A stretch of 64,000 bases of DNA from a virus, in IMG/VR virus record IMGVR_UViG_3300008954_000022, positions 1 through 64,000 of that record. One strand, written 5' to 3'. The notes below the pieces were generated by a model. That model did not search any database and had not been told where the DNA came from. It saw only the letters and a list, made by a program, of their open reading frames with translations. Position 1 is the stretch's first letter; every line of letters starts with the position of its first letter. Shown here one piece after another: positions 9,645-37,121 of this stretch. The translations under genes and the position numbers were made by a program.

Positions 9645-12146
9645 ATGGCATCAACACAGAGAGTCCTGTCAGGTTCTCAGTCTAAGGGAAGTCAGGCAAT
9701 CCTGGTCTACCCGCCCTCTCTATCCGGAACCACAGCAATAGACCAATATCGGCAGGGAATCAACTGTCGCACGATGGATCACCTGTATGGATTCATAGGG
9801 CTTAAGCCGGCACCTATTAATGACCCCATCAAGATTGTCGACGGACAGAGAATGGAGACGTATAGATTCTATAATGATCTAGACGCGCCGAGCAACATGG
9901 CTTTGTCCTCCAGCCGACCTGAGTCCGGATCTGTAGAGGCTTCCTTTAACACCAGCACAGCTACGGTCGATACAGGCATATTCTCAAAGAACACCAACAG
10001 TGCTGTGGGTGATGCTGCTACGACGTCTAATAAGTGGGTGGTGTTGGGTGGAAGTGATACGACGAGGTACTTGAGTACTGTGGGATCACACGGAGGAATT
10101 AGAGCTAACAGCCTCCAGGACAAGGTGACAGTCAAGTATCGTGTGATCCGTGGCAACACAGCAGGAGGATCCGAGGGTGTCATCACATGGACGGGTGGTA
10201 ACATGTCCAATCCTCCCGAAGCAGACGAGGACCTACAGCTCCAGGTAAGGCTCGACCTCGATGCGGATACGGGTGGTAACCAGTGGTCACCAATTAAGAT
10301 ACACTCTCTGTCAAATACGACCGCTGGCGTGGCACTCTCTGTCACAGAGTCCCTAGGGTCTTACGGGCCCGGCCCCTGGAGCGTGAGGTGGATACAGACA
10401 AATCACAGCTCCGGATCAGCCGATACCTGGGCTCTGACTGATATCTCTATTGAGGTTAACTCACCCATTCGCGAGCCCAAGTGGGGCGTGAAATCCCTCC
10501 CACAGCTGGATACCTCCACCCGATCCTCTGGCCTGGGTGTAGCAATCAATCACGCCAGGGATCAGCGTGACCTCGGCCAGGCGATGTACGTCTACCAGGA
10601 CGGCCGTGAGTACAACGACCTGATGACCACCAACGGTGCTGATATTGTTCGAACACCGCCTCTCAATCTAGTTGTGCCTGAGATGATGGTTGATGCGTCT
10701 GCACGCAGCCTAATGGACGGTGTAATGGAGGTGTTTCCAATCAGAGGCCTCGCAGATCGATCCTCAATTGAGCTGCCCTACACCGCGCGCGGCATACGAG
10801 CTGATATGTGCACAGAGGATGTTTTCAGGCAGTCGTCCCTTATGGACCAGCAGTACGATCCCAATGAGAAGGGCGTGGACATGTACTTCGATGGAGTTGA
10901 GACTTTTGGTCTAGACCTATTGGAGCCGACCTTCCAGGCCTTCAATCCCCAGGAGGACGACGAGACCTTTGCGGACAGGCTTCCTGTTGGTGCAACATCC
11001 ACAGGCCCAGTCACAATGCAGGGATTGTTCGCACCCAGAACTAATCAACTTGAGCCCTTTAAGGAGGGGTCGGACGCGTACATAAGGATAGCGGGTATCA
11101 CAGACGAGCAGATTGTCAACGAGCACCCGGCCACAGCAACAGTTTTTATTGGGGGGAGTGATGCATCGTCCCCCATTTCGATAGTAAATCTCACCGTTTC
11201 CAGCGGCACCGGTGCCTCCGGGATGGCAGAGGGTGAGCGCATCATCATCCGAGCCGACTGGCTCAATCCGCATCTCGGTGGATATGAAATGCGGAAGAGG
11301 ACCTATAGGATCGTTGATGAGGAGCTCTCAACCGTCTCTACCGGGACTGTGCTGTCGGCCGACTCAGACACGGGTTCTGCCACAACCGCGAATGCTGGTG
11401 ACATCGCTGTCGCAATCAAGGTGACAGGGTCCTCCCTGGACACTCAGAATGAGTTTCTGGTCCAGCTTAAGGCTGCCATTGAGAATCCCAAAGGCCACGG
11501 CTCCTCGATAATTGTTGGTGATGCGCCGACTGCCGCCGGCGCCCAGTCCCTTTCACTAACACGATCTGACAACGTCGCGTGGGTCTACAATCCGGCCAGT
11601 AACGTGGGCAATCTTGAAGTCGACATGGGGGTGCCCTACACCAACTCAACAGTCACAATCGTCTCGACAGACGGGACCTCCAGGGTGTACACCATGGCCG
11701 CCCCCGGAGTTGCACCAAATCCTCTAGCAAATCCTCCCACTTTTGGTGGGGCGGTCCCGCTGGCCGTCGCTATATCCCTTCGTAGCGCGATTGAAGCTCC
11801 GACTGGCACTGGAGGCGCCGGCGGTCACGGTGGCAGGATTACTGTGTCACTTCCAGCGCTGTCCTCTCTGCTGACCTTAACACAGGCAAACGCCGGCCCG
11901 GAAGGAAACACCACAGTAACTTACGCCGAAGCGCCAGGGAAGCCCGTTGCCGCCGCGGCAACATCCTTCACAGGGGGCATGTCCGGTGGTCTGGTAGACG
12001 GAATAATGACGACAGCTCTGGCAGCAATGACAGGCTCAGCCCAGGATCGCCTCAAGAGAAACCATGTTTCCGCCGGAGCAGGTTTTGTGTATATTGGTAT
12101 GGATAAGGGCACAGACTCCATCGCATTCGGAGGCCTCAAGAAGTAG
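9645..12146 (+). CDS. Virion structural protein carrying two insertion modules
   Basis: The ATG at 9645 directly follows the stop of the LamG gene (TCTAGATGG). The 833-residue product begins MASTQRVLSGSQSKGSQAIL and has a beta-rich N-terminal half. Two copies of the recurrent STDGT...FTGG module follow: a long variant at about residues 496-642 (RTYRIVDEELSTVSTGTVLS, then a helix EFLVQLKAAIE) and a second at about 654-778 (TVTIVSTDGTSRVYTM ... LLTLTQANAGPEGNTTV ... FTGG). The protein resumes after the second copy with MTGSAQDRLKRNHVSAG. I do not recognise the family; the context indicates a tail or baseplate surface protein. Confidence 0.75.
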   Translation: MASTQRVLSGSQSKGSQAILVYPPSLSGTTAIDQYRQGINCRTMDHLYGFIGLKPAPINDPIKIVDGQRMETYRFYNDLDAPSNMALSSSRPESGSVEASFNTSTATVDTGIFSKNTNSAVGDAATTSNKWVVLGGSDTTRYLSTVGSHGGIRANSLQDKVTVKYRVIRGNTAGGSEGVITWTGGNMSNPPEADEDLQLQVRLDLDADTGGNQWSPIKIHSLSNTTAGVALSVTESLGSYGPGPWSVRWIQTNHSSGSADTWALTDISIEVNSPIREPKWGVKSLPQLDTSTRSSGLGVAINHARDQRDLGQAMYVYQDGREYNDLMTTNGADIVRTPPLNLVVPEMMVDASARSLMDGVMEVFPIRGLADRSSIELPYTARGIRADMCTEDVFRQSSLMDQQYDPNEKGVDMYFDGVETFGLDLLEPTFQAFNPQEDDETFADRLPVGATSTGPVTMQGLFAPRTNQLEPFKEGSDAYIRIAGITDEQIVNEHPATATVFIGGSDASSPISIVNLTVSSGTGASGMAEGERIIIRADWLNPHLGGYEMRKRTYRIVDEELSTVSTGTVLSADSDTGSATTANAGDIAVAIKVTGSSLDTQNEFLVQLKAAIENPKGHGSSIIVGDAPTAAGAQSLSLTRSDNVAWVYNPASNVGNLEVDMGVPYTNSTVTIVSTDGTSRVYTMAAPGVAPNPLANPPTFGGAVPLAVAISLRSAIEAPTGTGGAGGHGGRITVSLPALSSLLTLTQANAGPEGNTTVTYAEAPGKPVAAAATSFTGGMSGGLVDGIMTTALAAMTGSAQDRLKRNHVSAGAGFVYIGMDKGTDSIAFGGLKK
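11130..11570 (+). repeat. Insertion module copy 1 (long form)
   Basis: Encodes about 147 residues with RTYRIVDEELSTVSTGTVLS, a helix EFLVQLKAAIE, GHGSSIIVG and SLSLTRSD. It matches the long copy at 15972-16436 closely in order and wording. Boundaries are approximate. Confidence 0.6.
11604..11978 (+). repeat. Insertion module copy 2
   Basis: Encodes TVTIVSTDGTSRVYTM, a helix AVAISLRSAIEAP, HGGRITVSLP, LLTLTQANAGPEGNTTV and the closing FTGG. Confidence 0.7.
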
Positions 12147-12149
12147 GAT

Positions 12150-14684
12150 ATGGCTAAGGTCAAGTTAAGTAAGAAGTTAACAGGAGCCCGTTTCGACACC
12201 AACTTCCAGGTGTCCTCGGGCATCGAGGGTAGGTCCCACGTGGGTCGGCTGCACTACACAGCAGCCAACTCCCTGGTTGCCCACTGGAGATTCACAGTTG
12301 ACGGAGCTCCGCACAGACTTCCACTGCACAGTGGAAGCATCAGGGACCTCTCCGGAAATAGTCACCGCGGCACATATACAAGTGATGGCTCAGAGACGAG
12401 CTTCAAGGCCTGGGGACACGTTGCGGCCACTGCTACTGTGACTTTCGTCGGTGTACCGGACAACGATGAGAACATCACGATCATCTCCACTAACAACACT
12501 GCCAGAACGTACACGAAGGCCGCCAGTGAACTCCTCACCACGGGATCACACTTCGCTGGTGCCACTCCAGCCCTATTAGCTACCAGTTTAAGGGACTGCA
12601 TCAACGCGGCCGCCGGTCACCCGAATGAGATAACTGCAACGTCCACCGGTGGAGTCGTGACACTCACACAGGATTTGAGTGGGTACGGTGGCAACACAAC
12701 GATAACCCACAACATGTCCCCAGAGGGTTCTGCTACGAACTTCACGGGAGGCAACAGCAATCCCACCAGCACATCTGTCCCCGGCCTAACCTTCGCTAGC
12801 GGTACCCGCCCAGGATACGACGTCCTGGTGAGTCCACACTCCGGAACACACGTCGCTAGCGACCCACCCCCACTCGCTGCCAGTTTTCCGTCAACGACAC
12901 CCTATGTCACCATTGCGCCTGATCTCAGAGCATCCAGTAACTTTCACTTCATAACCGAGAATATTGGCTCACCCCAGGACATCACGAAGGACAAGCCGTT
13001 CTCATTCGCAACGTGGCTCAAGACGACTGATACATCCTTTGGAATCTTCGCGTTCCAGGACCCCCTCAATCCGGACAACCACGGTCACAGGTTCTACTAC
13101 GATGCAACTTCCCTGCACCTCTCCCTAAGGGACGGCCCAGCGATCACAGATGAGTTTCACGTCTACACGGGACCTGTTAGCTCACTAGTGCCCACTAATA
13201 CCTGGGCCCATGTGGCGGTGACCTATGATGGATCTGGCGGGCCCACCCTCCTTTCTCACGTCTCTGCCAGTGACGCGGAAACTAACTACAACGGAATGTA
13301 TGAGGGATCGGGCATTCGAATCTACGTTAACGGCTCGCGCCTCCATGATATGGGTGGAACCCGCTCGGGAACTAAAAATAATCTCTGGTTCAACGGCGAT
13401 GGCATTGAAAGCTCAACCTACACGTCTCCCACACCGACGTGGTTACACGGATCTGAGGCAGCGACTGCCACTGTGACATTCACGGGTGTGCCAACCAACG
13501 GCGACACGATCACAATTACTTCCACTGATGGAACGACCAAGGCCTATGTTAAGGGAGCAGCGCAGGATCTCACCGCTGATCCCTGTGTGTTTCACGGGGC
13601 CAACGCCAGCGCAGCGGCCACTTCCCTCAAGCTGTGTATCTTAGATGCCGAGGGCGGTCACAACGGCAAGATTACTGTATCCGGTCCGGACGCGGGAGCG
13701 CTAATACTAACACAGGCCATCGCCGGAGGTGCAGGGAACACGCACATAGTGACAAATGCAGTCTCCGGAACTCCTGTCCCCATTACAGTAACGAACCCTG
13801 TTCCATTAGCGCAAAGAACCCGCACAGGCCAAGGTGCCTATCGCTATAACAATCCTGGTTTTACCGGGGGACACGACCAGCAGCAGCTGATCCTCGGGCG
13901 CGGTCGGCCCGCTTTGACAGGTTCCTACGGACTCCCATACACGGGACTCATGTTCGAGCCCGCCCTGTGGTCCAAACAGCTTAGGGATGAGGACGTTCGA
14001 GCCCTCTACCACGCGGGCCTCAAGGGTGTGAGGCAGTACAGGAAGCAGTCGGGATTCCTCGGTCTCCCCCCCCGCGTGGAGATTAGAGATAGGGACAATC
14101 AGCTTGGTGCTTATCCGACGATCTCCAGGCCTGGGTCCAGGGACTTCTCCGGCCGATTCACCACCCAGTATGACGACTCCACAGCCAATGAGTTTCTCTC
14201 CGGATACGCGTCAGCCAACATAAAATTCCTCAGAAATCCCAAAAGTACAACGAGAATAGCGCTGACAGGATCACACGGCCTGGATGGGTCGCCTGCCACA
14301 GTGAAGGAGTTCGAGTGGTCCCACAGCCCATCTCACTCTGTTACTATAATAGGCGCCGGCCGAGTCCCAGTTCGTAGGCACAGGCGAACGGCCCTAGCCG
14401 CACGAGAGTTTGTCAAGCAGGTCAATGAGCTAACAGGCACTCTGGGTATCTACGCGTCCCTGTCCGGCAAGACAGTAAGCCTCTCCCAGATGATTCCTGG
14501 AAAATCAGGTAACACCAGAATCGTTCTAACAAATGTCACAGGAACGTTCGATGTAAGTCAGCGTCACCATAAGTGGAGGGCCCTGGACCCGGGTGTTGTC
14601 GATGTGACGTCAGACGCCGGCCGAGATCCGGGCAAAGAGTCGTTAGGGTTAAGTGGTGGCAATTTTTGGATTCTGACAGGATAA
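12150..14684 (+). CDS. LamG surface protein interrupted by insertion modules
   Basis: This 844-residue protein starts at ATG 12150, three bases after the previous stop. It opens like a LamG protein (NSLVAHWRFTVDG, GSIRDLSGNSHRGTYT) but is interrupted by a module at residues 93-201. It returns with the LamG core (PFSFATWLKTTDTSFGIFAF, NTWAHVAVTYDGSGG, GIRIYVNGSRLHDMGG) and is interrupted again at 437-574. The final LamG strand follows (QLILGRGRPALTG, LMFEPALWSKQLRDEDVRAL). A more divergent module-like stretch lies near residues 717-802 (VKEFEWSHSPSHSVTIIGAG ... VSLSQMIPGKSGNTRIVLTN). The fold suggests glycan binding or a surface display role. The TAA stop is in the same frame as the next large gene. 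Confidence 0.75.
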   Translation: MAKVKLSKKLTGARFDTNFQVSSGIEGRSHVGRLHYTAANSLVAHWRFTVDGAPHRLPLHSGSIRDLSGNSHRGTYTSDGSETSFKAWGHVAATATVTFVGVPDNDENITIISTNNTARTYTKAASELLTTGSHFAGATPALLATSLRDCINAAAGHPNEITATSTGGVVTLTQDLSGYGGNTTITHNMSPEGSATNFTGGNSNPTSTSVPGLTFASGTRPGYDVLVSPHSGTHVASDPPPLAASFPSTTPYVTIAPDLRASSNFHFITENIGSPQDITKDKPFSFATWLKTTDTSFGIFAFQDPLNPDNHGHRFYYDATSLHLSLRDGPAITDEFHVYTGPVSSLVPTNTWAHVAVTYDGSGGPTLLSHVSASDAETNYNGMYEGSGIRIYVNGSRLHDMGGTRSGTKNNLWFNGDGIESSTYTSPTPTWLHGSEAATATVTFTGVPTNGDTITITSTDGTTKAYVKGAAQDLTADPCVFHGANASAAATSLKLCILDAEGGHNGKITVSGPDAGALILTQAIAGGAGNTHIVTNAVSGTPVPITVTNPVPLAQRTRTGQGAYRYNNPGFTGGHDQQQLILGRGRPALTGSYGLPYTGLMFEPALWSKQLRDEDVRALYHAGLKGVRQYRKQSGFLGLPPRVEIRDRDNQLGAYPTISRPGSRDFSGRFTTQYDDSTANEFLSGYASANIKFLRNPKSTTRIALTGSHGLDGSPATVKEFEWSHSPSHSVTIIGAGRVPVRRHRRTALAAREFVKQVNELTGTLGIYASLSGKTVSLSQMIPGKSGNTRIVLTNVTGTFDVSQRHHKWRALDPGVVDVTSDAGRDPGKESLGLSGGNFWILTG
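12426..12752 (+). repeat. Insertion module copy 3, inside LamG
   Basis: Encodes ATATVTFVGVPDNDENITII, STNNTARTYTKA, a helix LLATSLRDCINAA, GHPNEITATS, VVTLTQDLSGYGGNTTI and FTGG. It lies between the first LamG strands and the LamG core. Confidence 0.75.
13458..13871 (+). repeat. Insertion module copy 4, inside the same LamG
   Basis: Encodes ATATVTFTGVPTNGDTITIT, STDGTTKAYVKGA, HNGKITVSGP, LILTQAIAGGAGNTHIV and FTGG. It interrupts the LamG fold between IYVNGSRLHDMGG and QLILGRGRPALTG. It shares a 21-base string, TCCACTGATGGAACGACCAA plus G, with the copy at 18753. Confidence 0.75.
14298..14555 (+). repeat. Divergent insertion module copy 5
   Basis: Encodes SVTIIGAG, a helix ALAAREFVKQVNELTG, VSLSQMIPGKSGNTRIVLTN and lacks the final FTGG. 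The order of elements matches the other copies but the wording is worn. Confidence 0.4.
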
Positions 14685-14765: not shown

Positions 14766-17700
14766 ATGTTCGGACCCGGAAGATCGCACAGAAGCTCATT
14801 CGATCCTCGCCGTCGGTCTGATAATCCTGAGAGTCTAGGAGCTTTCACTGAAGCACATCTATTTGCACAGTTTGGTCACACACCAGTGCGTGCCTCAGAT
14901 ATCACAACCGGGAGTTCAGCAGGCGACAATCCCAATCTCACCTGGGACAGTCGATACACTGTGGACGAGGAGTTGAATTCAGGCTTTTACATGACAGGAT
15001 CAGATCCTGAAATAGTTGGCCCTGGATTATCTGCTCCGTTGTGGGACAAGCACAAGATAGAGATTGATCTAACACCGTCGACAACAACAGAAGTACAGCA
15101 CCAAAACTGGAACTCCCAATCTCTGGGTTTCTACCACGATGCCCCCAATCAGACGCTCTACGGCCCAATGATGTACTTTAACTTTAACGAGCAAAAGTGG
15201 GAGAGGATTGGAACACACGAGGCACACCCCCTCCCTACAGACCCAATTCCCGCTTCCCAGCGAGGGAACCTCACTGAGGAACAGGCTCGCTTGCGACTGT
15301 GGCTGGACAGGACAATGGTGGGCTTCGGTCAATCTACACAGATCTTCACTGGTGATTCCGACGACCGCCAGGCTTCATCGCCAAAGTCGCCGAACTCAGA
15401 TCCCGCAAAGAAGATCTTTCTGACCACAGGCATGGCGCAGCCGACCAACACGTTTGGGTTTCCCTTTCATCCAAAGTTTGCTGCGACAGGATCCCAGGTG
15501 TTCAACGTGTCCAGTGTGATTGACCGACCGTTCTTGGTTGAGAAGGTGGTGTACGAGTTCTCAGCCTCGCTATCGAATAAGACCACGTCTGCAGACAGCA
15601 ACCCTTTTACAAGGCACCCTGAGGGTGTCACTTTCTTTATCCTGAATCAGCGCGCAGGAAATATAGATCCGGGTATTGAGAACAGGGCAGTAATGGTGAG
15701 GGTGAGCGATACATCTCCCACCGGCAGTGATGGAAGCCCAGCCCCGGGTACAGAGACCCTCGAGATACCCTATTCCGGAACTATCCCAGGTGTGTGGCAG
15801 CTCTCTCCCCCGCTATCTGCGTACGGATACGGTGAGGGATACAGCTTCACGACCCTCGCAGGCACGACTGCAACGTCGGGATCGACAACAACTGTGACAG
15901 GTGTGTCTACCAGTTTTCTCAGTGAGCTGAAAGTGGGTGACAGCATTCAGCTAGTTCCCAGGGACGAGGAGGCGACAGCAACAGTATCTGTATCAGACGG
16001 AGATAGAAACCTGACCACAGCGTCCGGCGAGGGGAGAAAGATAACCATCACCTCCACCGATGGAACGACGAGGGTCTATCGAGTAGTTGATAGCAACCTC
16101 TCCGCCATCGCCACGGGAGCTGTGTTAGCAGCCAACTCCGACACCGGTGCGGGTACAACAGCGGACGCCGGCGACATTGCAGTCTCAGTCCCCGTTAATG
16201 GAAGCCCAGGAAAGCAAAATGCTCTCCTGGTCCAGCTCAAGGACGCAATTGAGGACGAAAACGGACACGACGGTAAGATTGTGGTGGGAGCTGTTCCGTC
16301 TCAGGCTGATGGAAAGCAGTCAATAACACTGACCCAGTTGACAATAGGTACCGGCGGCGGTGCATCTAGGGGCGTCACAGAGATAGTTGAGGACTTTTCG
16401 GACGCGGCCAACCAAGGGTGTCTCTCAGTAACAAATTTCGAGGTCGCAGATCTCAAGTCCAATGTCGTGACCCGAATTAACAGCGACACAGAGCTCCTTG
16501 TGAGCGCACCCGCCACCGCTGCAACTGCAATATTGACATTCACGGGAACGCAGGTAGCTGACACGTTCATGGTGATCAAGTCAACAGATGGGACTCAGGT
16601 GACCTATTCAGCGGGCACTGAAACGACAATAAGCTTTTCGGACATGCAGTTTCAGGGCAATGTGAGTGCTGTGGTCTCTGCAAAGGCGCTCCAGGAGTGT
16701 ATTGAGTCTAAAGCGGGACACGGAGGCAAGATACGTGTGCACCGTGCGGGCGCTGTTCTCACTCTCACCATGGTACAGGCAGGTCAAATACACACTCTTC
16801 ATTCCGGCAATTTTGCCATTGATATCCTCACCGGCAATCTGGCCAATGTTACGATCACACAGCAGTGGAAAGACGGCCAAGACGCCGGCATTGCAGGCGG
16901 CACAAGAACGGGATCCACGACCTCGTACATTCGTAGAATAATTCCTGTCAAGTATGATAATGTCGACACTGTGAGAGACCTGGTGACCTTTAGTCGCCTA
17001 GCAACAATGTCGAGCAAGGACAGTCTCGATCTCAAGGACGATTTTGAGAAGTATGTGGTTGACCCTAGACGTGACGCAGATCTCACAGTCGACTCACCCA
17101 CCAGCTGGTCCCATCAGAAGCTGACACTAGCAGCACCCTGCAGGGCACCCTCCCTCAGCCCGGGTGCGTCTACATTTGATGTAGGGGGCAACTTTATTGA
17201 TATCGATGGAGATGACGATGAGGATCGTCTTCTCATTAGGTATATCAACGGCTCGAGGAACGGTATGGGAATCCCAACCGGTCGATCGCCTCGTGGTGGA
17301 GAGTTTAGTGGCTTCTCTAAGCAGTATGAGCTCACCTCCGGCGATAAGGCCTTTAGACTCTTCTCACCCACAACTGATAATGTCGTCTCACCCTACCTAC
17401 TCAAACCAGGTGACAAGCTGGTCTTCGGATTCCAGGCACCGCTAGCGTACTCTGTCTACAACACAGGTCCCAAATTTCTCGTCCATCCCGGCGCCGGAAA
17501 GCTCGTCTTGTACGGATCAGTCCTGAGGAATGATCACGAGTTAACGCCTGAGAGCAATCAGCCCCTAACATCAGAGGCTGTGCATGAGTCGCTTATTTTG
17601 GGAACAGATGTGTACGATCAGTTTGACACTGAGCCCACGTTCGCGTTCTCTGGATCCTACCTGGATAAGATTGTAGGTGGGCACATGATCACAGGCTCAT

Positions 17701-20414
17701 TCCCCACTGTAACCAGTGCATCCTTCCACCTCGAGAATAAGGGAATGCACAGAAAAGTTATGGGCTACATTACCGAGGGTACAGCGGGAGTCACCGGCTC
17801 CTTCCTACGCGGTATTAAGATGGCTGACACCCGGGAGAGATTTTATGACTCCCTCCTGCCTTCTGTCGCGGAGATGCTGGCTGTGAACGGGGACTCTCTG
17901 TTTGATGGAAGAAGTTTTCAGGTCCAGGCAACACTGCAGTCGAAGCTCTTCGACGATACGGGCGCTGAGCAGTCTTTTTCGATTCCCCTCCATAGGGATG
18001 CGGGAATGTTAGATCCGTCAGCTAATGTGCTGGTTATAGCTGAGCCCCGCTCGTCTATACAAGGCCCTGGGCAAATCTTTGACAGGGATCTGGCATTCCT
18101 GTTCCCCTTTGAGCCAAAGTACTCAAATGTCTCCCGATTGGCCACAGAGAGAAAGGGCAACAAGACATTCAGCGTGGTGACAGGCTCTACTGGCAGGGGC
18201 GTGAGAAGAGGTTTCATCAGTCACATTGCTGTCACAGGCTCCCAGGTCTTTCTAAAATCGATGGGCCTGCAGTCGTACCTCCTCAGAGTGAAGGACATCG
18301 ACATGACCGACGTGCGCAACAATCGTGGCGCGCCGGTGAAGAGCCATGGCAACGGCCGAAGTCGACCATCGTTCACTGAGCTCTCCTCCTCTGTGTCTGA
18401 GTCCATCTCCCACGCAGGTCTGGCCATCCTGGGTCCCGGTGGAACAGAGAAGACTTTCAATGAGATTGATGGCGTCACCCTTCTTAACTCCCTTTACTTC
18501 GGGTTCGGCGATGGATTCTTTGGCATGCCCAAGTTCAAAAAGTTTGAGTACGAGGGCGGTGAGGAGGTAACACCGGTTGGCTTTACCAGGGCCAATCAGG
18601 CGACGACAATAACAGGCGTCGACACCAGGTTCACTAGAGACATTAAGGTCGGTGATCGTATTGCCCTGAGTGGTACCCTCGCCCCTGAGGGCTACGTCCA
18701 GCCTGGCCACGCCGGCGGCGGCGGATCCATCATAAGCCATGGCCCGCGGTCCTACGCAAAGATAACGTTCACCAACACTCCGCAGACAGCCCCGGACAGT
18801 AACACCACAATTACAATTGTGTCCACTGATGGAACGACCAAGACCTACGTCGGCATGGGTCCTGCCGCTCCCACCCCCGCCTCCCTGGAGTTCACGGCGA
18901 CCTCCACCGCCGCCACCGCCGCGGCAACGCTGAAGACAGCTATTTATGATGCTGCTGGTCACACAGGGGACAAGATTGAGGTAGAAGATAACCTGGACGG
19001 ATCCCTAACCCTATACCAGACTGAAGTCGGGACATCCGGATCGATGAATACAGCTATCGTCCTGGGTTCCAGCATGGGCAACACAACAGTGGACAACTTC
19101 AACAACACCCAGTACGGCCAATTGGGATCGAGTATATACGGGTCTGTTACAGCAATAGCCTCGGACACAGAGCTGACAGTTGAGTCCACAAACACCAACA
19201 GCAGTCGCGCGCGCACAACGATCGCGGTGACCGTTGGCGACGCCGCCCACGGAATGACCAAAAATCAAAAAGTCACCATAACATCGACCGATGGAACAGT
19301 CAAAGATTACATTGTCACCGACACAGGAAACTCCGGAGCGGCGACGGGCACCGCACTAACAAATGGCGTCACAAATGTCGGTGGTGGGACAACCGCTACT
19401 GTTACTGCTGCCGACGGAGGTGTTGCATTCGGCGCCGACCTCGGCACCAACCCCACACAAAATGCCATGCTTGCCCAGCTCAGGACGGCCATCTTGTCCG
19501 CCGCCGGTCACAATGGGAAGATTGCAGTTGGAGACACATCTGCTGATAACAATGGGACCCAGCTTCTCGCGCTAACACAGTCAGTCGGAGGCATCGCTGG
19601 TAATACAACATTCACAGAGAATATAGCCAACTTCACCGCCGCCACAAACTTCACAGGAGGTGGCGGCCTGGGTGACGGCACAGACTTCCAGAAAATAGAG
19701 GTTGAGCGTAATCCCACGATGCAGGTCTCAGGCTCCTTCACCAGCACCGGCACGCAGACCCTGACCACAACCACAGTGACGTACACGTACTGGCACCCCA
19801 GCGATTTCTGGTGGGAGTACTACGCGAGATTCTACGAAACCTACGCTAAGGGAGGCTTCTTCCAGGGCCAAGGGTGGTCCTACACCTACCCAGGCTTCCC
19901 GGTCGGGTCGTGGATCTACGGCATCTATATTGGGTGGTCCCAATACTACACAAATCTCAGGCAACAGAATGCACTGCCAGTCTACAGCCACAACAGTGTT
20001 GAGGTCAATAGGGACATCTCAATGCACATCACCGGTGCGATGCACATAGGGGTCGGATCTGGGGTGGAGCTGAGGGGTTTCAAGTATGGTATTGCGAATA
20101 TTAGGCCCCTCTACACTTCTGCAGTCTATAGGCACAACAGGTACGGGCAGGTGAGGGATCTCCTCGAGCAGAGACAGTTCACACGCTTCTTCACAGAAGA
20201 CGGCGTTGAAGCTGGCCCGGTCAAGGTAACGTTCACCTCTCGACCAGACGAGGATGGCGCAAGGTCAGTTAATGTGGATCCAGCGTCGACACACAGTCAG
20301 AACTTAGATATATTTTGCACATCATCACTTCCATACTTCGACGGCCTCACCCGGGACCGTGCCACCGACCCGGATCGGAGCGGTGGTGACAGCATTATGT
20401 TGACATTTGAGTAG
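14766..20414 (+). CDS. Giant tail-fibre/adhesin-like protein with four insertion modules
   Basis: The called frame gives 1,882 residues from ATG 14766, but that ATG has no Shine-Dalgarno sequence, and the frame is open back to the TAA of the previous gene. A well-placed AGGA-ATG at 14678/14689 lies in another frame, so the true start may be 14689 with a frame change. Two GxxTxF-type domains (GVSTSFLSELKVGDSIQL near 377 and GVDTRFTRDIKVGDRIALSG near 1283) are each split by a module and followed by another (modules at about 403-557, 583-703, 1330-1450 and 1482-1632). Residues about 1670-1733 are extremely rich in Tyr, Trp and Phe. The C-terminus returns to ordinary beta-rich sequence. The role is probably host contact; the family is not recognised. 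Confidence 0.75.
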   Translation: MFGPGRSHRSSFDPRRRSDNPESLGAFTEAHLFAQFGHTPVRASDITTGSSAGDNPNLTWDSRYTVDEELNSGFYMTGSDPEIVGPGLSAPLWDKHKIEIDLTPSTTTEVQHQNWNSQSLGFYHDAPNQTLYGPMMYFNFNEQKWERIGTHEAHPLPTDPIPASQRGNLTEEQARLRLWLDRTMVGFGQSTQIFTGDSDDRQASSPKSPNSDPAKKIFLTTGMAQPTNTFGFPFHPKFAATGSQVFNVSSVIDRPFLVEKVVYEFSASLSNKTTSADSNPFTRHPEGVTFFILNQRAGNIDPGIENRAVMVRVSDTSPTGSDGSPAPGTETLEIPYSGTIPGVWQLSPPLSAYGYGEGYSFTTLAGTTATSGSTTTVTGVSTSFLSELKVGDSIQLVPRDEEATATVSVSDGDRNLTTASGEGRKITITSTDGTTRVYRVVDSNLSAIATGAVLAANSDTGAGTTADAGDIAVSVPVNGSPGKQNALLVQLKDAIEDENGHDGKIVVGAVPSQADGKQSITLTQLTIGTGGGASRGVTEIVEDFSDAANQGCLSVTNFEVADLKSNVVTRINSDTELLVSAPATAATAILTFTGTQVADTFMVIKSTDGTQVTYSAGTETTISFSDMQFQGNVSAVVSAKALQECIESKAGHGGKIRVHRAGAVLTLTMVQAGQIHTLHSGNFAIDILTGNLANVTITQQWKDGQDAGIAGGTRTGSTTSYIRRIIPVKYDNVDTVRDLVTFSRLATMSSKDSLDLKDDFEKYVVDPRRDADLTVDSPTSWSHQKLTLAAPCRAPSLSPGASTFDVGGNFIDIDGDDDEDRLLIRYINGSRNGMGIPTGRSPRGGEFSGFSKQYELTSGDKAFRLFSPTTDNVVSPYLLKPGDKLVFGFQAPLAYSVYNTGPKFLVHPGAGKLVLYGSVLRNDHELTPESNQPLTSEAVHESLILGTDVYDQFDTEPTFAFSGSYLDKIVGGHMITGSFPTVTSASFHLENKGMHRKVMGYITEGTAGVTGSFLRGIKMADTRERFYDSLLPSVAEMLAVNGDSLFDGRSFQVQATLQSKLFDDTGAEQSFSIPLHRDAGMLDPSANVLVIAEPRSSIQGPGQIFDRDLAFLFPFEPKYSNVSRLATERKGNKTFSVVTGSTGRGVRRGFISHIAVTGSQVFLKSMGLQSYLLRVKDIDMTDVRNNRGAPVKSHGNGRSRPSFTELSSSVSESISHAGLAILGPGGTEKTFNEIDGVTLLNSLYFGFGDGFFGMPKFKKFEYEGGEEVTPVGFTRANQATTITGVDTRFTRDIKVGDRIALSGTLAPEGYVQPGHAGGGGSIISHGPRSYAKITFTNTPQTAPDSNTTITIVSTDGTTKTYVGMGPAAPTPASLEFTATSTAATAAATLKTAIYDAAGHTGDKIEVEDNLDGSLTLYQTEVGTSGSMNTAIVLGSSMGNTTVDNFNNTQYGQLGSSIYGSVTAIASDTELTVESTNTNSSRARTTIAVTVGDAAHGMTKNQKVTITSTDGTVKDYIVTDTGNSGAATGTALTNGVTNVGGGTTATVTAADGGVAFGADLGTNPTQNAMLAQLRTAILSAAGHNGKIAVGDTSADNNGTQLLALTQSVGGIAGNTTFTENIANFTAATNFTGGGGLGDGTDFQKIEVERNPTMQVSGSFTSTGTQTLTTTTVTYTYWHPSDFWWEYYARFYETYAKGGFFQGQGWSYTYPGFPVGSWIYGIYIGWSQYYTNLRQQNALPVYSHNSVEVNRDISMHITGAMHIGVGSGVELRGFKYGIANIRPLYTSAVYRHNRYGQVRDLLEQRQFTRFFTEDGVEAGPVKVTFTSRPDEDGARSVNVDPASTHSQNLDIFCTSSLPYFDGLTRDRATDPDRSGGDSIMLTFE
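15972..16436 (+). repeat. Insertion module copy 6 (long form)
   Basis: Encodes ATATVSVSDGDRNL, KITITSTDGTTRVYRVVD, the long loop with ATGAVLAANSDTGAGTTADA, a helix ALLVQLKDAIE, GHDGKIVVG and SITLTQLTIG. It is inserted after KVGDSIQL of a host domain. Confidence 0.65.
16512..16874 (+). repeat. Insertion module copy 7
   Basis: Encodes ATAILTFTGTQVADTFMVIK, STDGTQVTYSA, a helix SAKALQECIESKAGHGGKI and AVLTLTMVQAG. It follows the resumed host strand INSDTELLVSAP. The closing FTGG is missing. Confidence 0.6.
18753..19115 (+). repeat. Insertion module copy 8
   Basis: Encodes YAKITFTNTP, TTITIVSTDGTTKTYVG, a helix AAATLKTAIYDAAGHTGDKI, SLTLYQTEVG and lacks the closing FTGG. It sits after KVGDRIALSG of the second host domain copy. 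Confidence 0.65.
19209..19661 (+). repeat. Insertion module copy 9 (long form)
   Basis: Encodes QKVTITSTDGTVKDYIVTD, a long loop, a helix AMLAQLRTAILSAAGHNGKI, LLALTQSVGGIAGNTTF and FTGGGG. It follows the resumed host strand IASDTELTVEST. Confidence 0.7.
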
Positions 20415-32118: not shown

Positions 32119-33399
32119 ATGCCACAATTAACCGGTGGAAGCTTTAAGAGAATACAACCTGAGGACATTAAAGTCCGTCGATCGACACTAAATCAGTTGG
32201 TCGATATTATTCAGGAGGACATCTCCGGATCACAGACACGCCGTGCATATCAGGTCTTTGTTACGGGTGGTGTTGGTCCGGGTGTAACTTCGTCCCTGTT
32301 CCAGACAGTAAATGATCAGGACTTCTCTCTACAGACTGCCAATCCAATCTTCGACCTAACTGTGGGACTCCATGCATCGGGAACCACAGTGACGGTTGCG
32401 TCCACCGGCCTAGACTCCGCCGGAAAACTTCTGTTCGCATCAAGTTCAGTGATGATGAGAGAGAAGGTGGACATCTATAAGCAGTACGCTCAGGCGCTTC
32501 TAGGTAATTCAGACTCGGCATTCTACTCGCCAATTGGTTCCACAGACGTGTCTGATCGAATCGATGAGGCCATGTTTGTCTCCTTTAAACGTCTGTTCGC
32601 AAGGGACAAGATCAAGAAAGAGACCTTTGCGATGCGTTTCTATCAAACAGGAACGATGACTGCTACTGAGACAGGCGACCATCCGCCACGGCCCACGCTG
32701 AACATTACGAGTGAGTCAGGTTCCGTGATCTTCACCGATATTGGCGCAGCGACCAACACCCGACGAATATTTGGGGGTGACGTCGCAAACGTCGTTGCAG
32801 CGTCCAATACAGCTCGACGCGTCGGCCTTATCTTCTATGATCACGGAACAGTACTCCTCGACCTCGCGAAGGTGATATCAGGGACTCAGCATGTCTCCGG
32901 TGTTATTAGGGCGATGAATCAGTACTCACCTGACGGACTCCTAGCGACGGGAACAATGGTCATTGGGCACGGTTTTGAGAGCGTTGCTGATCCTACGAGA
33001 CAGATATTCTCAGGCAATCCGAATGCGAAGTACATTCCCGACCTAATGGTGTCGGCATCGATCGATGATATTGTCAACCATCTAGCAACTACTCGATTCT
33101 CCTCAGGAACACTAACAGCGATGACATTCCAGAATGTCACAATGATTAACTCGACGTTGGTCTTCTGCCGGGCTACTGCGGATGAATTCAATTTCTCCAC
33201 GAATCCAACATACACAAATAATTCTGGGCGAATTCGAGTGATTGATCAGGGGCAGGAAACACAGAGATCGTTCTCCTTCCCAACAACAATTGGCCTCCAC
33301 GATGATTTTGGGAACTTGCTGGCAGTTGCAAAGCTCTCCAGGCCTATTGAGAAAAACGATGAGCGGGATCTCACCTTCCGTGTTCGTTTGGACTTCTAG
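32119..33399 (+). CDS. Virion structural protein with conserved C-terminal LHD motif
   Basis: This 426-residue protein starts MPQLTGGSFKRIQPEDIKVR, followed by STLNQLVDIIQEDISG. The C-terminus reads SFPTTIGLHDDFGNLLAVAK then LSRPIEKNDERDLTFRVRLD. The 1,227-residue protein of the next gene ends with the same pattern (ITSVNLHDESFNVIGRANLA, QPIVKRDSDGYLFRLRID), so the two are related at their C-termini. I have seen this ending in other marine phage structural proteins. A role in the tail or fibre network is likely, but no function can be named. Confidence 0.72.
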   Translation: MPQLTGGSFKRIQPEDIKVRRSTLNQLVDIIQEDISGSQTRRAYQVFVTGGVGPGVTSSLFQTVNDQDFSLQTANPIFDLTVGLHASGTTVTVASTGLDSAGKLLFASSSVMMREKVDIYKQYAQALLGNSDSAFYSPIGSTDVSDRIDEAMFVSFKRLFARDKIKKETFAMRFYQTGTMTATETGDHPPRPTLNITSESGSVIFTDIGAATNTRRIFGGDVANVVAASNTARRVGLIFYDHGTVLLDLAKVISGTQHVSGVIRAMNQYSPDGLLATGTMVIGHGFESVADPTRQIFSGNPNAKYIPDLMVSASIDDIVNHLATTRFSSGTLTAMTFQNVTMINSTLVFCRATADEFNFSTNPTYTNNSGRIRVIDQGQETQRSFSFPTTIGLHDDFGNLLAVAKLSRPIEKNDERDLTFRVRLDF

Positions 33400-33437: not shown

Positions 33438-36400
33438 ATGGCAATTATACCAATACCAATAGAGAATCTTGAACGATTTACCCTCACAGCCAATCCCCGC
33501 CGGACATTCACATCATCATCCTCAGGACTAACAGGGTCAGTTAAAGTCTTCTCTCGTGCTTCAACCATTGAGAAGGAGGCACAACCCCTCGAGGATTATG
33601 GTGGAGACAGCTGGGGAACAGCTGATGTTGAGGAGCTAAGGGTCCAGACTGTCAGGGACTCTAGGGGTTCAAGTGATATTTCTGGCAACATCAGTCAGTA
33701 TTTAGAGACTGTTAACTCCTCTTCAGCATCACCTGCACGTCAGAAGAAGGTGGAGGTCATTCGATTCGAGCCCTCCTTCAAGCTGACCAGTGACTCCCTT
33801 CGAAAGAATGTGGTGAGAAAGGTGCTCTTTCCCACATATCGAAGCACCTACCCCACATTGCAGTGGGCGTATCCCAACTACCACACCCTACACTTCTTTA
33901 CGTCCGACACGACTCCCACGGGATCTGTCCTCATATATCCAGCTGCTACTTCTTCCGGGGAGACCAATGAGGTCGACAACTTCATGTACTCACCCCACAA
34001 GGAGTTTACGTTCGATTTCTACATCAATCCGAAGTATTCGTCTGAACCGAACGACTCGAAATTCACTTCTACTGCAACATTCACGTTCTCAGATAAGCCT
34101 CCTGAAGAGTCCGCTATCACCCTGTTAGATAGCGATGGGACTTCGGTTGCTTTCGAAATAGATAACGAGAATAATGGTCTTAAACCACCAGCAGCCACCT
34201 TTACGCTAACCGACAAACCTAACGAAGGCAGTACAATCAATTTGATTGATGGTGATGGAACCTCAGTTACGTTTGAAGTTGATAACGAGAACAACGGTGT
34301 CTCTGCAGGCAATGTTGCTCTCAACGGAATCTATGCTGCAGGTGGCGGCGCCACAGGAACCGCTGCAGATCTTGCTGCAAAGATTAATGCTCAGTCTGCG
34401 TTAGATATGACAGCATCAGCGTCAGGAATTGGAGTAATAACCGTAACCCAGGGTTCAACTGTCGGCCGAAGCGGCAATACTACAATCACAGTAAATGACG
34501 CCGCTCACTGGAACAGCGTGTGCAGTGTAAATGTCCCCTCAGCTTTCACTGGTGGGCGTGGAGATGTCGCTGTAAGTGGAATTGCTGCCGCCGGCGGCGG
34601 CGCCACGGGAACTGCTGCAGATCTTACTGCAAAGATTAATGCACAATCATCCCTGGATATAGTAGCTACAAATCCCTCTGCGGGAGTAGTCTTACTCACG
34701 CAAGGTGCTGTCGAAACAAGCGCGGGTAATACTGCAATTACCCTAGACAATGCCGCTGCATGGAACGCAAGCACTAGTGTTAACGTTCCATCTACATTTA
34801 CAGGCGGCACTGAGCCTGGAAGAACAGTGTACCATCCGGGCACGGTCATTCACATGTCTTCCTCGTACGCAGTGAGCCTAATCTCGGGCTCATCGAAGGA
34901 TCACAACGGCAAGACGGATGGCTTCAGGATAATGTTGCAGCTGAGCAACAGTGCTGAGACATCGCCCAGGAATACTGTAGTAACAGCTAATAGTGCGAAT
35001 CAGCCCTTCCCGCAACGAGCGGTCGGTACAGGAGAACAGATCAGTGACATGGTATTCTTCTCGAAGGACAACGCGCTCAAGAGAAATCACTGGCATCATG
35101 TCGCTATTAGGTGGGGTTCCTCGATTAACAACGGCACAGGATCGTTCGTGATCGACGGAAAGGAGGACGCGACATTTGTGGTAACAGCCTCCTCAGTGAT
35201 GCCCCAGGCCTTTGAACCACCGTACGGTGATCCCGACGCCGTTTTTGTGGGCAACTTCTATGACGGTCCCAACAATGGTACACTGGATGGCTCAGGTGTT
35301 GTAGCACAGTTCTTCAATGCCAATGCTGCCCACCGTGAGGGTGTTACCAGCATGTTCACGAATGACTCGTACGACATGTCTAATGTAGATGCCACACACA
35401 ATGATATAGCAGAACACAAGATAAGATTCTCACACCCATTAAGGGCGGAGATCCACGATCTCAAGATATTCAACACTTACCACTCACTGCAACAGATAGC
35501 CTCATCCTCTCAGAAGGGACCTGATCCCCTTCCAGCTGACCTGATCTTCTATGTGCCACCTTTCTTTGTGAAGGAGACTAAGGAGCGGGAGGTGATGCAG
35601 ACACCGTTCCAGACAGTTCGATCGACCACAGATGATCCCTTTAACGTTGCCCTGTCGTTCGGCGTCGGTGGCCACATGTTGAACCTTCCAAACTTTACCC
35701 GAGAGTTCGTTAACGGCCTCTATCCTCGCCTCTTCAATCTGACGGGATCGACAATTGATGTGACCACGAACACGGCAGAGCTGTGTAACCTGTGGCTCTA
35801 CCGAAATGCGTCACTGAGAAAGAGAAACCTCACAGTGCTACCGTGTGATAACGGGAGGTTCAGTCCGTCATTCAACCTCCTCAAGTCAGGAACCCGAGTC
35901 GAAGTCCCTGCATCCGGATCACTGATCGATAGGTTTGTTAATGACTCTGGAAATATTGACTACGGCCTTATCAACCTCTCGAACATGGTCAGCACCGCAT
36001 CCCTACCGGAGGGGCTGATCGATATAACCAGTGAGAACCGCGGAAGGCAAGGAGTAGGAACTCAGGCTGCCTCTGCAGAGATTGTCTACACAGCAACCAA
36101 GACTGCGGATCAGACAACTATAAGCCTAACAGGATTACGCAAGAACTCGGTGACAAACTCTTATGACAGAGTGACGAAGGTCTACCGATTCGTATTCACA
36201 GGCGGTGTCAACGGAGATGTTCAGGGGGGCAAGGTTATAGTTGATGCCAGCAGCGCCGATGCCGATACTGTCTACGACAATTTTGTGTCTGCTGTCAATG
36301 GCTCCACCGGGCACGCAGGTCTAATTCTGGCCAGCAGAGATGCCAACGACACCGATGACTACGCCGGAGTGGTGACCCTCAATCAGCGCGCAGTGGGAAC

Positions 36401-37121
36401 TATAGGGAACACTAATATAGGGCACAACCTCACGAACCTGTACAGGACATTGACCTCATTCACAGGCGGGAAGGACAATTCTGACTCCTCTATTTCCAAC
36501 TCTCTAGAGGGCGCGCCGCCCGAGGATCCGGGTGTGGCCAAGTCCGGTATTCTGACGATTCTGAATAGGACGAAGGACCCCTCCTCGAACCAGGTTGCAT
36601 TCTTTGACGTGTCGAACCTCTTCTATGGGAATCAGATTAGGCGTGGATCGTTCCAGGTGACAGACACTAGTGTAACTGGATCTGGTGGCGTTTTATCAGT
36701 TACACTCAGGGATGATGGACACGGAGGCCTCTACCGTGCCGATGCCCTATCGAAGCACGCCACGTGGAACGCTGTGGGCAATATCATCTATGAAGAGGGT
36801 ATTGCTGTTGTTAAGACACCGAACATTCCTATTTTTGGGGCCGACGAGTGGACAACCAGCTTCGAGGGTGAGCACAATGTGCACGTCCTGGAGATAAACG
36901 TGCCCTGCCCCAAGGGAACCGTCAACTCCTCCTCCAATCCGACCTTCAAGGCGCTTAAGCCCACAGACTACGCCAATGAGACAGCGTCTCAATTTAGTTA
37001 CATTACAAGTGTAAATCTCCACGATGAGAGTTTTAATGTAATAGGAAGGGCCAACTTGGCCCAACCCATTGTGAAGAGGGACTCCGATGGATACCTCTTC
37101 AGGTTGAGGATCGATTATTGA
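33438..37121 (+). CDS. Giant LamG structural protein with a self-nested insertion module
   Basis: The 1,227-residue product has a weak ribosome site (ATGACGGCGTTAA before ATG 33438). A LamG-like domain begins at about residue 190 (KEFTFDFYINPKY). It is broken by a double module at 212-457, in which a complete copy (252-373) sits inside another copy (212-251 plus 374-457). It then continues with DGFRIMLQLSNSA, NHWHHVAIRWGSS and IHDLKIFNTYHSLQQI. A further module occupies residues 878-1011. The C-terminal strand motif (ITSVNLHDESFNVIGRANLA) is shared with the upstream gene. A surface or adhesin role is inferred. The stop overlaps the next start (TGATG). Confidence 0.78.
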   Translation: MAIIPIPIENLERFTLTANPRRTFTSSSSGLTGSVKVFSRASTIEKEAQPLEDYGGDSWGTADVEELRVQTVRDSRGSSDISGNISQYLETVNSSSASPARQKKVEVIRFEPSFKLTSDSLRKNVVRKVLFPTYRSTYPTLQWAYPNYHTLHFFTSDTTPTGSVLIYPAATSSGETNEVDNFMYSPHKEFTFDFYINPKYSSEPNDSKFTSTATFTFSDKPPEESAITLLDSDGTSVAFEIDNENNGLKPPAATFTLTDKPNEGSTINLIDGDGTSVTFEVDNENNGVSAGNVALNGIYAAGGGATGTAADLAAKINAQSALDMTASASGIGVITVTQGSTVGRSGNTTITVNDAAHWNSVCSVNVPSAFTGGRGDVAVSGIAAAGGGATGTAADLTAKINAQSSLDIVATNPSAGVVLLTQGAVETSAGNTAITLDNAAAWNASTSVNVPSTFTGGTEPGRTVYHPGTVIHMSSSYAVSLISGSSKDHNGKTDGFRIMLQLSNSAETSPRNTVVTANSANQPFPQRAVGTGEQISDMVFFSKDNALKRNHWHHVAIRWGSSINNGTGSFVIDGKEDATFVVTASSVMPQAFEPPYGDPDAVFVGNFYDGPNNGTLDGSGVVAQFFNANAAHREGVTSMFTNDSYDMSNVDATHNDIAEHKIRFSHPLRAEIHDLKIFNTYHSLQQIASSSQKGPDPLPADLIFYVPPFFVKETKEREVMQTPFQTVRSTTDDPFNVALSFGVGGHMLNLPNFTREFVNGLYPRLFNLTGSTIDVTTNTAELCNLWLYRNASLRKRNLTVLPCDNGRFSPSFNLLKSGTRVEVPASGSLIDRFVNDSGNIDYGLINLSNMVSTASLPEGLIDITSENRGRQGVGTQAASAEIVYTATKTADQTTISLTGLRKNSVTNSYDRVTKVYRFVFTGGVNGDVQGGKVIVDASSADADTVYDNFVSAVNGSTGHAGLILASRDANDTDDYAGVVTLNQRAVGTIGNTNIGHNLTNLYRTLTSFTGGKDNSDSSISNSLEGAPPEDPGVAKSGILTILNRTKDPSSNQVAFFDVSNLFYGNQIRRGSFQVTDTSVTGSGGVLSVTLRDDGHGGLYRADALSKHATWNAVGNIIYEEGIAVVKTPNIPIFGADEWTTSFEGEHNVHVLEINVPCPKGTVNSSSNPTFKALKPTDYANETASQFSYITSVNLHDESFNVIGRANLAQPIVKRDSDGYLFRLRIDY
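34071..34808 (+). repeat. Insertion module copy 10, split by a nested copy
   Basis: The outer copy is encoded by 34071-34190 (TATFTFSDKPPEESAITLL, then DSDGTSVAFEIDNENNGLKP) and 34557-34808 (GIAAAGGGATGTAADLTAKI, VVLLTQGAVETSAGNTAITL, FTGG). Together these make 124 residues, the same size as the 122-residue copy inserted between them. Confidence 0.85.
34191..34556 (+). repeat. Insertion module copy 11, nested inside copy 10
   Basis: Encodes a complete 122-residue copy: AATFTLTDKPNEGSTINLID, SVTFEVDNENNGVSAG, YAAGGGATGTAADLAAKINA, ITVTQGSTVGRSGNTTITVN and FTGG. It sits directly after DNENNGLKPP of the outer copy. Confidence 0.85.
36069..36470 (+). repeat. Insertion module copy 12
   Basis: Encodes ASAEIVYTATKTADQTTISL, VTKVYRFVFTGG, a helix TVYDNFVSAVNGSTGHAGLI, GVVTLNQRAVGTIGNTNIGH and the closing FTGG. 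Confidence 0.7.

Follow-up and report, generated by a model that had tools for sequence, protein, structure and literature searches.

Whole copies of a phage virion-protein module nested inside copies of the same module

How does a protein come to carry two first halves of one module followed by two second halves? The question is raised by a 1227-residue open reading frame (ORF) in the window, by which we mean the whole stretch of 64,000 nucleotides analysed here, part of a 95,672-base phage record. Within residues 212–457 of this ORF, first parts (A) and second parts (B) of the module follow one another in the order A1-A2-B1-B2, in the following setting:

33438–37121, + strand: ORF of 1227 aa from the ORF listing, carrier of the nested modules
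33885–34070, + strand: concanavalin/LamG-like host domain, first part, residues 150–211, ending in FTFDFYINPKYSSEPNDSKFTS; aligns to uninterrupted viral-contig homologues
34071–34190, + strand: outer module, first part (A1), residues 212–251, profile positions 2–37
34191–34556, + strand: inner module, complete (A2 and B1), residues 252–373, 122 aa, profile E = 2.7e-52
34557–34808, + strand: outer module, second part (B2), residues 374–457, profile positions 41–122
34809–35597, + strand: concanavalin/LamG-like host domain, second part, residues 458–720, with GTVIHMSSSYAVSLISGSS and, further on, HWHHVAIRWG; aligns to uninterrupted viral-contig homologues
36189–36452, + strand: divergent partial copy of the module superfamily later in the same protein, E = 9e-5, profile positions 29–110

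The product of this ORF is a virion protein of the tail/baseplate region. Its gene sits among virion genes, with RuvC-like, primase and SbcCD-like recombination/replication genes coming after it, and baseplate-wedge (phrog_43, phrog_6) and tail-fibre PHROGs are present elsewhere in the window. Sequence searches of Pfam, PHROG and PDB assigned neither the protein nor the module to a family. In addition, GTDB genome contigs contained zero relatives, and tblastn searches of INPHARED phages with the module, the nest of contig L010 (described below) and the whole 1227-aa protein returned none that was related.

Removing the inner copy joins A1 and B2 into a module of 124 aa, which is identical to the inner module at 77 of 122 residues (63%). 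A sequence-only reading of this DNA had proposed that one module copy lies whole inside another, and the order of the parts bears this out. Its limits (34071–34808, with the inner copy at 34191–34556) and the 124 residues left on removal are exact; a small correction applies to the point at which the outer copy resumes, which is RGDVAVSGI (34557), just before GIAAAGGG. The hand count of about 64% identical bases over the first halves comes close to the computed 62% (71/114), and the second halves agree at 61% of bases (154/252). At third codon positions, identity falls to 34% in the first half and 38% in the second. From these base and third-position identities, the two copies in the window are either old or derived from different sources. 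Because the third positions are near saturation, the nesting event is not recent, as had been suggested from the sequence.

The four pieces match half-profiles with E-values of 2e-21, 7e-21, 3e-34 and 1e-34 and therefore do not represent chance similarity. We scored the outer module with a profile built without the 1227-aa protein and shuffled each part 200 times. The two parts reach 156.0 bits when joined, as against 55.1 (positions 2–37) and 98.6 (positions 41–122) singly and a maximum of 107.1 when either part is shuffled. The outer module thus has the properties of a domain interrupted by another: its pieces tile a single profile and, joined, score far above the separate parts and the shuffles. 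All outer first parts, at 34071–34190 and in the homologues, carry E-E after DKP-x (PPEES, PNEEER, PNEESW), a position at which most inner copies show E-G and most single copies E-T, E-G or E-Q. Either common descent or adaptation to the host role could account for the E-E.

The nested pair itself interrupts a loop, between FYINPKYSSEPNDSKFTS and RTVYHPGTVIHMSSSYAVSL, of a domain that we take to be concanavalin/LamG-like from sequence motifs and general knowledge rather than from a Pfam match. As read from the sequence, the concanavalin-like domain encloses the outer module, which in turn encloses the inner one. The host loop measures 16–24 residues in 20 distinct homologues, compared with 273 in the window and 272 in the L002 contig. 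In L127, the same loop holds an independent, divergent module of the same superfamily (170 residues), and in L110 and L131 a module occupies a different loop of the concanavalin-like domain. A second host, a small protein, has the empty site MIKITAGGSTKTATLIDFS in L140, compared with MIKLTGPG followed by the AABB unit and AAGTTKTATIVDWS in L004; the empty hairpin site is also found in L139, L141, L146 and L150. Homologues of the outermost hosts that lack the insert therefore exist (20 concanavalin-like and five with the empty hairpin site), and for the outermost layer the direction is clear: the insert entered a host that was older than the nest. For the inner layers, we infer the direction of insertion. 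The short C-terminal domain WMSDGTGAGDDGDIMMKITAGGSTKTATLVDFS, empty in the same five contigs, is common to otherwise unrelated phage proteins; in other phages, it is this domain that houses the AABB unit.

The A-A-B-B order recurs in 11 IMG/VR contigs and in two unrelated protein contexts. The first comprises the window's protein and L002, whose sequence agrees with that of the window at 94% across the nested region, and the second is the small protein of ~360 aa (L003, L004, L005, L006, L014, L015, L016, L017, L019 and L021). Shared by so many contigs and with so close a relative in L002, the order is not an assembly artefact of one contig. In none of the AABB homologues are the halves replaced by two full domains, an outcome that the sequence-only reading had named as telling against nesting. 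Trees of the halves, which are too short for the purpose, did not separate a single origin of AABB from several. At the A/B-linker site alone, AABB could also be written as separate tandem duplications of A (to AA) and of B (to BB) with no nesting of whole modules, a scheme compatible with the two halves having diverged to the same extent (62% and 61% identical bases). We regard this as very improbable: it requires A and B to have been copied equally often on every occasion (AABB in 11 contigs, AAABBB in L025), and the empty sites of AABB hosts lack both parts. Nor can it yield L010, in which the B half is cut at positions 79 and 103 into pieces that tile one module.

A deeper nest, AAABBB, lies inside a 5920-aa frame in L025 and L033. 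Its two outer modules are 80% alike, and the innermost one shares 73% of residues with one of them and 70% with the other. The inner module of the window is 72% identical to the innermost module of this nest and 62% and 58% identical to the outer two, and the outer module of the window is about equally like all three (70–71%). With module types assigned from the likeness of the two outer modules of AAABBB to each other and from the inner one, the parts run in mirror order (outer, outer, inner, inner, outer, outer), which matches the prediction of nesting. The same order bears on a domain swap or parallel pairing, in which A1 would pair with B1 and A2 with B2 to give two interlocked domains. 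The linear order of the parts permits such pairing, and the confidence of the AABB structure model is too low to decide against it; the pairing would nevertheless mismatch the mirror-ordered types, and it is inapplicable to L010, where the innermost modules are contiguous. We think it has little chance of being correct.

Nesting of whole modules is extended to two loops other than that used in the window by L010, where a 3735-aa frame parses as M1(M2(M3)M4):

1478–1558, 1806–1830 and 1954–1973: M1, in pieces that tile profile positions 1–78, 81–102 and 105–122
1560–1664 and 1787–1805: M2, in pieces that tile profile positions 1–103 and 105–121
1665–1786: M3
1832–1953: M4

Divergent copies of the superfamily also act as hosts. 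In the hairpin loop of one such copy in L025 lies a further module (28.3 bits, compared with shuffle maxima of 18.6 and 18.1). In L018 and L020, a module lies in the third loop of a divergent copy (32.1 and 32.7 bits joined; shuffle maxima 25.0 and 24.7), and this divergent copy probably sits, judging from profile scores, inside yet another, making three layers. The outermost of these layers scores 35.3 and 36.4 bits joined, and none of 200 first-part shuffles scored as high. For the outermost layer of L084, 2 of 200 shuffles matched or exceeded the joined score. Two further candidates were set aside: the outermost layer of L011, for which 50 of 200 shuffles scored as high and nesting is unsupported, and a hairpin-loop host module in L007 that appears nested by eye and whose 15.5 bits equal the shuffle maximum of 15.5, so that it was not counted.

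The nesting itself, the tiling of interrupted modules, its recurrence and the empty sites of the outermost hosts can be read directly from the sequences. We consider it highly likely that they reflect the insertion of complete module copies, in frame, into loops, the outer copy being interrupted by the inner. The earlier proposal that a whole module can enter a loop of another module gains support from the tiling of the interrupted modules, and equally from the balanced AABB and AAABBB orders, the use of two further loops and the outermost hosts with empty sites.

An AlphaFold2 model of the inner module alone (31 relatives; pLDDT 80, pTM 0.79) contains strands at 2–5, 15–19, 25–30 and 42–44, a helix at 53–67, strands at 73–78, 82–87 and 99–101 and a helix at 104–110. 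The self-insertion sites at ~38–41 (A/B linker), 79–80 (hairpin turn) and 103–104 (before the last helix) all fall between these elements, a result that is not significant alone since about half of the module residues are in loops. In the weak AABB model (mean pLDDT 65, pTM 0.50), the expected succession of strands and helices appears twice, once per copy; the other four models have mean pLDDT values of 42 or below.

In the reading that we favour, the module is a promiscuous add-on domain of ~120 residues in virion proteins of metagenome-derived tailed phages, built, as predicted, of three strands and then a strand, helix, hairpin, strand and helix. Complete copies have entered, in frame, surface loops of other virion domains and also three loops of the module itself: after residue ~38 in the A/B linker, at ~79 in the hairpin turn, and at ~103 ahead of the final helix. 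The two pieces of an interrupted module most likely still come together across the insert and fold, so that A1 would pack on B2 as one unit. The insertions probably originated in rare illegitimate or homology-assisted recombination and were kept when both ends landed in loops. From its hosts and folds, the module may serve as extra exposed surface or as a spacer on the tail.

At matched amino-acid use, GC3 in the nested unit falls below that of the remainder of its gene (89 observed against 129.6 expected; z = −5.4), which suggests that the unit was acquired from elsewhere. No target-site duplication was found at 11 junction pairs; nine of the 11 share no word of at least 7 bases, and the remaining two share 7-mers only. 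The module thus lacks the marks of a DNA transposon or other mobile element, whether target-site duplication or terminal repeats, and its earlier description as being like a transposon holds as an analogy only. A module that is actively mobile, as a protein-coding unit that brings its own means of insertion and does not spread by ordinary recombination only, would fit the many hosts, the use of at least three loops within the module's own copies and the foreign-looking GC3 in the window, but the junctions speak against it, and we give it the slimmest chance of the explanations considered. Somewhat more plausible, if still doubtful, is that recursive self-insertion at the three loops is a regular mode of growth with a matched-bracket grammar, possibly by way of recombination targeted to module copies.

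Recursive self-insertion has a precedent in Si3 of the cyanobacterial RNA polymerase β′ subunit, in which several copies of the sandwich-barrel hybrid motif (SBHM) are assembled from segments that lie far apart in the chain (PMC10802570) and which has been described as a six-level recursive insertion (PMC13114784). As in the phage module, homologous domains are nested in each other, so that the phage nest is a new variation on a known phenomenon. Si3 differs in its fold and in belonging to a cellular enzyme, whereas the phage nests lie in virion proteins. Unlike those of Si3, the copies within a phage nest are still roughly 60–87% alike; they also occupy three different loops, and homologues of the outermost hosts were found with the site empty.

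The top PDB fold matches of the AABB model are the D2-D3 regions of flagellin and the flagellar cap protein FliD (8erm, 5xlj), but these are weak (best E 0.015, TM ~0.3), and no match fell below E 0.001. FliD (6iwy) is also the second-best PDB fold match of the single module. In FliC and FliD, D3 is inserted in D2; PDB sequence searches gave no match between these proteins and the module. Among viral folds (BFVD), the best match of the single module has an E-value of 3e-5, with weaker matches to tail sheath, tail tubular protein B and baseplate J-like proteins. Thirteen of 32 modules match the phage tail sheath PHROG 165 weakly (E up to 0.1, best 4e-4; window copy 0.059). Large sheath-like proteins of L008 (158–3373) and L097 (ORF from 973) each carry a single complete module, as with the inserted domains of tail sheath and tail tubular protein B, for which we found no account of self-nesting in a limited open literature. 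Ig-like domains are add-on domains in many unrelated phage virion proteins, and the module resembles them in working as an add-on. Its model, in contrast to Ig-like domains, has a central helix, and the bacterial Ig-like (Big) families gave no Pfam match above the gathering cut-off (Big_1, E 0.14).

Phage proteins of this module family grew by nesting as well as end to end. Judged by an open-literature search with a few terms, the novelty lies in the module family and its occurrence in phage virion proteins, in insertion at three different loops, and in a layered series for whose outermost hosts empty sites exist. Domain insertion is common, but it is rare to find a domain inserted into itself three deep and to have both relatives at various stages and empty sites for comparison. 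The nests form a natural series for asking what allows a fold to accommodate an insert as large as itself, how mispairing among near-identical halves is avoided and how phage tail proteins enlarge. Repeat annotation that follows a tandem logic miscounts self-nested proteins.

Elsewhere in the window, profile searches located the module superfamily seven more times, in divergent form and spread over three further large ORFs:

11628–11978, 12426–12734, 13461–13802, 14208–14546, 15972–16340, 16521–16787 and 18753–19100: divergent module-superfamily copies

The neighbouring ORFs at 32119–33399 and 33438–37121 are homologous over their last ~66 residues (E 8e-8) and so have a common C-terminal end.
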